A stretch of 38,431 bases of DNA from Clostridia bacterium DTU025 (GTDB lineage Bacteria; Bacillota; DTU025): positions 143 through 38,573 of the forward strand of contig LFSP01000028.1 in NCBI GenBank assembly GCA_001513145.1. Reading direction: 5' to 3'. The notes beneath the pieces were generated by a model, which worked only from the letters and a program-made list of their open reading frames with translations, searched no databases and was not told where the DNA came from. Shown one piece after another: positions 15,801 to 16,204 of this stretch (its first letter is position 1; each line of letters begins with the position of its first letter). The translations under genes were made by a program, and so were the position numbers.

Positions 15801-16003
15801 GAAACTTGCTTGACAACGGTATCGGCAAACGCGATGACGAGGAGCAGTAGATTCCGCAACGGCCCGAAGAGAGCCGGGGGTTGGTGCGACCTGGCGGCAC
15901 GGTGGTTTCGAACTCGCCTCCGAGCGGCGCAGGTGAAGCCAAGGGCGTAGTCTGCGACGGATGGCTCCGTTAACTGCCGAGAGGCGCATGTTAAGTATTG
16001 CGT

Positions 16004-16079
16004 GGGGCTGTAGCTCAGCTGGGAGAGCGCTTGAATGGCATTCAAGAGGTCGAGGGTTCGATCCCCTTCAGCTCCACCA
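16004..16079 (+). tRNA. tRNA-Ala (anticodon GGC), inside the leuS T-box leader
   Basis: A complete 76-base tRNA with encoded CCA. Acceptor GGGGCTG pairs with CAGCTCC and includes the G3-U70 wobble that identifies tRNA-Ala. The D arm is GCTC/GAGC. The anticodon arm is CTTGA-ATGGCAT-TCAAG, giving anticodon GGC, which reads GCC/GCT. The T arm has loop TTCGATC. It lies within the T-box leader transcript, so it can be made by cleavage of that RNA. A weak private promoter (TTAACT 15970, 17 bases, AAGTAT 15993) would start exactly at the first tRNA base and cannot be excluded. Confidence 0.97.
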
Positions 16080-16173
16080 TTCTCTTTATGTATGTGTGCG
16101 CGATGAAGCTTCAACCTTGCCTGGACCTTCATTGCGGCGTGCGCGCAAATGGGTGGTACCGCGAACCTTTTCG

Positions 16174-16204
16174 CCCCTGTCAGCTTCGGCTGTCAGGGGT
16201 TTTT
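16174..16204 (+). terminator. T-box controlled terminator before leuS
   Basis: CCCCTGTCAGC (16174-16184) and GCTGTCAGGGG (16189-16199) form an 11-position stem with one T-T mismatch around a TTCG loop, followed by TTTTT. Its left side is preceded directly by the T-box sequence, which forms the competing antiterminator. Confidence 0.92.

Follow-up and report, generated by a model that had tools for sequence, protein, structure and literature searches.

The leucyl-tRNA synthetase gene (leuS) of Clostridia bacterium DTU025 is preceded by a T-box leader that encloses a complete tRNA-Ala(GGC) gene, and the pairing of the tRNA flanks across related loci places that gene in the loop of stem III. We think it likely that the leader joins a leucine (CUC) T-box switch to a constitutively made tRNA-Ala precursor, with the switch decision taken co-transcriptionally and the tRNA excised afterwards. 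The basis computed here comprises the anatomy of the leader, its conservation, the covariation of stem III and the standing of the nested gene as the sole Ala(GGC) gene found in two genomes.

Anatomy of the leuS leader

The locus lies in a window of 38,431 nucleotides, by which we mean the whole stretch of DNA that was analysed and to which all positions refer. Its features are as follows:

15772–15800, plus strand: leader promoter of the sigma-70 type, TTGACT-17-TATAAT (agrees with the consensus at 11 of 12 bases)
15825–16181, plus strand: T-box leader, whole Rfam match (RF00230, 103.5 bits, model positions 1–219)
15831–15925, plus strand: stem I, with AGAGAG at 15868–15873 (Rfam alignment and sequence)
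15913–15915, plus strand: specifier codon CTC (Leu), within GAACTCGCC (sequence)
15927–15975, plus strand: stem II and stem IIA/B pseudoknot region, CGGATGGCTCCGTTA...TGCC (Rfam alignment; pseudoknot partner from reading of the sequence)
15979–15983, plus strand: RRRxG motif GAGAG (sequence; motif as defined in PMC7583486; kept in relatives)
15984–15992, plus strand: 5' strand of stem III, GCGCATGTT (nine pairs with 16136–16144)
16004–16079, plus strand: tRNA-Ala(GGC) gene, anticodon at 16037–16039, CCA encoded, G3:U70 (RF00005, 64 bits; ARAGORN)
16093–16146, plus strand: extra hairpin in the tRNA 3' flank, particular to the window genome (folding, −23 kcal/mol)
16136–16144, plus strand: 3' strand of stem III, GGCGTGCGC, followed by AA at 16147–16148 (pairing with 15984–15992)
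16151–16177, plus strand: antiterminator, with T-box sequence GGGTGGTACCGCG at 16151–16163 and UGGU bulge at 16154–16157 (Rfam alignment)
16173–16204, plus strand: intrinsic terminator hairpin and U tract (folding)
16262–18736, plus strand: leuS, the putatively regulated gene, encoding an 824-aa leucyl-tRNA synthetase (ORF; about 44–80% identical to LeuS of related loci)

The original prediction, that a tRNA-Ala gene is nested in the leuS T-box with a Leu CTC stem I before it and the T-box sequence and terminator after it, is borne out at 15913–15915, 16151–16163 and 16173–16204. RF00230 unites the two halves across the intact tRNA-Ala(GGC) in a single full-length match (E 5.7e-22; 103.5 bits, above the gathering score of 93), whose alignment shows a 147-nt insertion around the tRNA, in the stem preceding the T-box sequence. 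The covariance model joins the halves as one T-box in five related loci as well (L014, L015, L016, L017 and L021), where the full-length match again spans the tRNA. RF00005 and ARAGORN place the tRNA ends at 16004 and 16076/79, and the specifier (Leu) agrees with leuS. The leader promoter is the sole promoter-like site that a scan found within 15300–16500. A second, complete T-box 3' of the tRNA, which would have spoken against the prediction, is not present, and a tandem rather than nested arrangement was rejected, given that the second half is without a stem I and the tRNA flanks co-vary. The folding energy of the leader as a whole was uninformative (z = 0.01), and a search of a plasmid collection gave, among the matches listed, only short ones centred on the tRNA.

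Other T-boxes occur in the same genome. At L010 (G000:C29:19674-20020, minus strand), a tRNA-Pro(TGG) gene ends about 26 nt ahead of another T-box, in tandem rather than nested; the specifier region of that T-box (GAATTCGC) possibly reads Phe TTC, and the gene that follows is, by reading, that of a TlyA-like S4-domain RNA methyltransferase. Two further T-boxes (L005 and L008) lie about 1.8 kb apart on a 6691-base contig (G000:C2).

Stem III and the spread of the nested arrangement

The T-box discriminator has been described as 5'-RRRxG-stem III-AA-3' (PMC7583486). In the window, the pairing first noticed between 15984–15990 and 16138–16144 proves slightly longer, comprising nine pairs (15984–15992 with 16136–16144), and the discriminator AA stands 2 nt past the stem, which it follows immediately in most relatives. 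Across 93 distinct loci, the flank duplex is more stable with its own partner than with swapped partners (mean −10.5 versus −6.8 kcal/mol; 2000 permutations; z = −15), and at least four contiguous pairs directly follow RRRxG in 66 of the 93 (29.8 ± 3.9 when the partners were swapped, and at most 39 in 50 shuffles); the sequences being related and thus non-independent, these statistics show that pairing is kept and not how many changes have occurred. An anchored stem III of at least four pairs is not recognisable in the remaining 27. Among loci, G-C, A-U, U-A and C-G interchange at the first four pairs of the stem. In L116, for example, the order is AAGTG-GACAG-...tRNA...-CTGTC-AA-TAA-GGGTGG, with the tRNA exactly in the loop, and the unpaired spacers between stem III and tRNA have a median length of 6 nt on the 5' side and 8 nt on the 3' side. 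Since the tRNA flanks co-vary as stem III within the usual RRRxG...AA context, the tRNA is placed in the apical loop of stem III, as had been proposed.

The window itself is atypical in that the 3' flank of its tRNA is unusually long (71 nt) and holds a hairpin of its own (16093–16146). This hairpin competes with stem III in the free minimum-energy fold (−70.4 kcal/mol), and an alternative that keeps stem III and the cloverleaf, together with a reduced accessory hairpin, comes within about 3 kcal/mol of it (−67.6); the modelled hairpin may compete or coexist with stem III. Through this local hairpin, the free fold hints at a tRNA standing before a self-contained stem III, an arrangement that we rejected for the group because the 3' flank in relatives is often too short for a hairpin of its own and pairs with the 5' flank.

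The same nesting was sought at leuS in relatives, as originally suggested, and recurs across genomes. Searching 60 relatives at the DNA level recovered this leader with its tRNA in seven genomes of the same family and order (G001, G002, G004, G005, G007, G008 and G010) and in two more distant ones (G026 and G036). A pattern consisting of a tRNA 3' half with CCA, 10–40 nt ahead of GGTGGNACCRCG, gave at least 119 loci in public species genomes; some matches without tRNA or T-box (in Streptomyces, Acidovorax, Glycomyces and others) were dropped. Among the matches listed and the relatives, ARAGORN found a tRNA followed within 110 nt by the T-box motif in at least 100 loci, all of them tRNA-Ala(GGC), at distances of 10–71 nt from the motif. 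The G3:U70 pair and CCA are kept in 100 of 100 nested tRNAs, which represent 58 different sequences, and by pattern or by reading of the sequence the specifier is CUC in almost all related loci (L145 and L143 are ambiguous).

Within the phylum of the window genome, the nested pattern is present in 78 of 398 genomes (51 of 266 genera), as against one match to a reversed-pattern control. This count is a lower bound, as the pattern misses the window (gap 71), L295 (no CCA) and L288 (a variant T-box); conservation on this scale excludes chance. Carriers include Syntrophomonas, Thermosyntropha, Desulfofundulus, Desulfallas, Symbiobacterium and others in Bacillota; Ktedonobacter, Dictyobacter and Tengunoibacter in Chloroflexota; and members of Thermomicrobiota, Armatimonadota, Atribacterota, Caldisericota and Coprothermobacterota, as well as metagenome genomes labelled Actinomycetota. 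Where loci reach that far, leuS is the first gene after the leader, or the second behind an acyl-CoA-synthetase-like or branched-chain-aminotransferase-like gene. In a Desulfotomaculum-like set (L048, L055, L078, L093, L101, L111, L130 and L143), the nested leader is followed by an acyl-CoA-synthetase-like gene and then, where the locus extends, by leuS. In L017 (G008:C5), a group II intron match (1921–2219) begins about 110 nt past the nested T-box, where leuS would be expected, before the contig ends.

An assembly artefact might be suspected, or a tRNA gene that lies by chance next to an independent T-box, since metagenome assemblies are among the records, the tRNA of L018 contains a run of Ns and L158 could be an assembly error. 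The nesting recurs, however, in many independent assemblies, including the single-contig or isolate genomes G026 and G019 and isolates of Syntrophomonas, Desulfofundulus, Ktedonobacter and Dictyobacter, and the 78 carriers stand against a single control match. The isolate genomes refute this explanation, whose probability we regard as negligible.

Expression of the tRNA and the order of events

A promoter scoring 9–12 of 12 lies ahead of stem I in 83 of 90 loci, in most related loci about 175–240 nt ahead of the tRNA, and the 75 nt directly ahead of the tRNA score about the same as shuffled sequence, except in a few loci, mainly of Ktedonobacteria. With a promoter ahead of stem I in so many loci and none typical before the tRNA, the tRNA is most likely transcribed from the leader promoter. 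Judged by promoter scores, the proposed tie between tRNA-Ala supply and that promoter thus appears to hold in most loci. Five Ktedonobacteria loci (L045, L061, L106, L107 and L123) have a promoter-like TTGTCG-17-[TC]ATAAT shortly ahead of the nested tRNA, so that separate expression of the tRNA is possible there; in L106 and L123, a tRNA-Ala(CGC) gene is also found just ahead of the leader.

The nested gene has the features of a functional tRNA-Ala (cloverleaf, anticodon GGC, G3:U70 identity pair and CCA). No other tRNA-Ala(GGC) gene was found in the draft genome of the window (G000, 96.7% complete; 44 tRNA matches) or in the single-contig genome G026 (43 tRNA matches), counts that cover the unmasked stretches, rRNA-operon tRNAs having been recovered in neither genome. 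In 50 carriers, an approximate motif count that misses diverged anticodon arms usually gave one Ala(GGC) copy or none, with two in G146. The tRNA-Leu(GAG) that matches the CUC specifier is present in G026, which has the same nested arrangement; it was not found among the 44 tRNAs of the G000 draft or by pattern, and may lie in a missing or masked stretch.

Two variants bear on which part of the leader is dispensable. In L290, a promoter, the tRNA-Ala(GGC) gene and a T-box-type terminator precede leuS, and the sensor is absent. In L158 (Atribacterota), compared with L098 and L137, about 200 nt are gone, from stem I to the 5' strand of stem III, and the promoter, tRNA and T-box sequence remain; this is a metagenome record, in which an assembly error is possible. 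Read from sequence, these variants suggest that the tRNA may be the part that cannot be lost. Since both kept the tRNA and lost the sensor, they could also speak for a T-box broken by the tRNA, the remainder serving as promoter and leader of a tRNA gene that merely chances to precede leuS. Against this, conservation across phyla extends to the specifier, the motif of stem I, RRRxG...AA, the pairing of stem III and the T-box sequence, while LeuS itself has diverged to about 44–80% identity; a dead element, moreover, would not retain compensatory changes in stem III. We consider a broken T-box very improbable.

For the combined switch and tRNA precursor that we favour, we infer the following order of events, together with co-transcription of the tRNA in both states and a switch that works as ordinary T-boxes do. 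The leader would be a transcription-attenuating T-box, driven by the single promoter ahead of stem I, in which stem III bears a complete, functional tRNA-Ala(GGC) gene instead of an apical loop. Polymerase would pass the sensor, then the tRNA and then the antiterminator and terminator; because the tRNA precedes the terminator, tRNA-Ala would be made whether or not leuS is read. Binding of tRNA-Leu and the terminator decision would take place while the RNA is nascent and stem III still uncut, and stem III would tolerate the insert because contact with the antiterminator is made only by the base of the stem and the purines that flank it. In the last step, tRNA-Ala would be released from terminated leader and leuS mRNA alike by RNase P and 3'-end processing. 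In Escherichia coli, pairing between the 5' leader and the 3' end of a tRNA precursor slows RNase P (PMC9433436), and an intact stem III could therefore delay cutting until the decision has been made.

The nested tRNA might instead take part in leuS control, with its folding, its A73-CCA 3' end (complementary to the UGGU bulge) or its cutting by RNase P competing with or timing the antiterminator, so that maturation or RNase P capacity would be an input. The tRNA lies 10–71 nt ahead of the T-box sequence, inside the discriminator domain (for the role of stem III, see PMC7583486); a cut there would part the sensor from the antiterminator; stem III is itself a leader–trailer helix of the kind that slows RNase P in E. 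coli (PMC9433436); and the tRNA type is identical across phyla. Set against these points, the bulge would not be selective for tRNA-Ala because tRNA-Leu has A73 too, and GU at −2/−1, which would extend the acceptor stem and is an RNase P anti-determinant, is no commoner in nested tRNAs (55 of 106) than in non-nested Ala(GGC) genes (17 of 25), and so offers no signature of nesting. Moreover, leuS T-boxes that are empty of any tRNA exist in related genomes (L277, L280, L281, L283, L286, L287, L292, L294, L297, L299 and L300), and the tRNA is accordingly unneeded for such a switch. Participation in control seems to us quite unlikely. It is possible, if doubtful, that the leader is a composite RNA of ancient origin, with one transcript and one helix common to the riboswitch and the essential tRNA gene, and that maturation of tRNA-Ala and the leucine decision are coupled, either because RNase P and 3' processing set the time window of the T-box or because the pool of terminated leader sets tRNA-Ala supply.

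Origin and relation to known systems

In a phylogeny of 119 LeuS proteins, the nested loci cluster (14 changes of state versus 23.7 when shuffled) without forming one clade. At least seven of these changes are forced by well-supported branches; a single origin on the LeuS tree was accordingly rejected, and gain, loss and transfer, whether of leuS or of its leader, are all possible. Repeated loss is likely, as is the transfer of leuS, or its replacement, behind a leader that persists. In G009–G011, which belong to the same order as the window genome, a distant LeuS type stands behind the nested leader, suggesting either replacement of the coding gene behind a leader that remained in place or joint movement of leader and gene.

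In tRNA–mRNA operons such as tRNA-tufB, RNase P frees the tRNA from the leader of the mRNA. The nested form shares with these the predicted co-transcription of a tRNA with a downstream protein gene and the predicted excision of that tRNA, but its tRNA interrupts the very regulatory RNA domain that decides downstream transcription. With the ordinary leucine T-box of leuS (RF00230), it has in common the CUC stem I, stem II and stem IIA/B, RRRxG-stem III-AA, the antiterminator, the intrinsic terminator and the presumed control of leuS; the ordinary form in related genomes lacks an insert, whereas in the nested form the loop of stem III is occupied by a whole tRNA-Ala(GGC) gene. Unexplained ‘curious insertions in every domain’ of T-boxes, including insertions in stem III and helix A2 of translational T-boxes, are mentioned in the available text of a review (PMC7583486). 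Extra stem III sequence is common to these and to the nested form; compared with the cases in that text, the present insert is a tRNA gene, sits in a transcriptional T-box and has the same identity across phyla. The T-box leader of Bacillus subtilis thrS is cleaved by RNase Y and RNase J (PMC3542257); cutting by nucleases is likewise predicted for the nested leader, but there it serves mainly leader turnover, whereas the cut predicted here would yield a functional tRNA.

The open-access literature that we searched held no description of a T-box with a tRNA gene inside, and earlier notice in subscription papers is possible; in the passages searched, a nested tRNA is mentioned neither by the paper on the T-box database nor by a survey of 2008 or a review of 2020. 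By every criterion tested, save for the tRNA-Leu(GAG) missing from the draft, the leader is a T-box and the insert a tRNA gene, and their combination appears to be new.

A riboswitch leader that stops at its terminator is usually viewed as discarded RNA. If the proposed mechanism is true, the terminated leader of leuS would be the precursor of an essential tRNA, in a form that roughly a fifth of the genomes sampled from the phylum carry and that recurs in several further phyla. The arrangement raises the questions of how the discriminator of a T-box works when stem III holds a folded RNA of 76 nt, whether RNase P or the terminator acts first, and why the tRNA is always tRNA-Ala(GGC). Deletion or replacement of the leuS leader in carriers could then be lethal for a reason unrelated to leucine.
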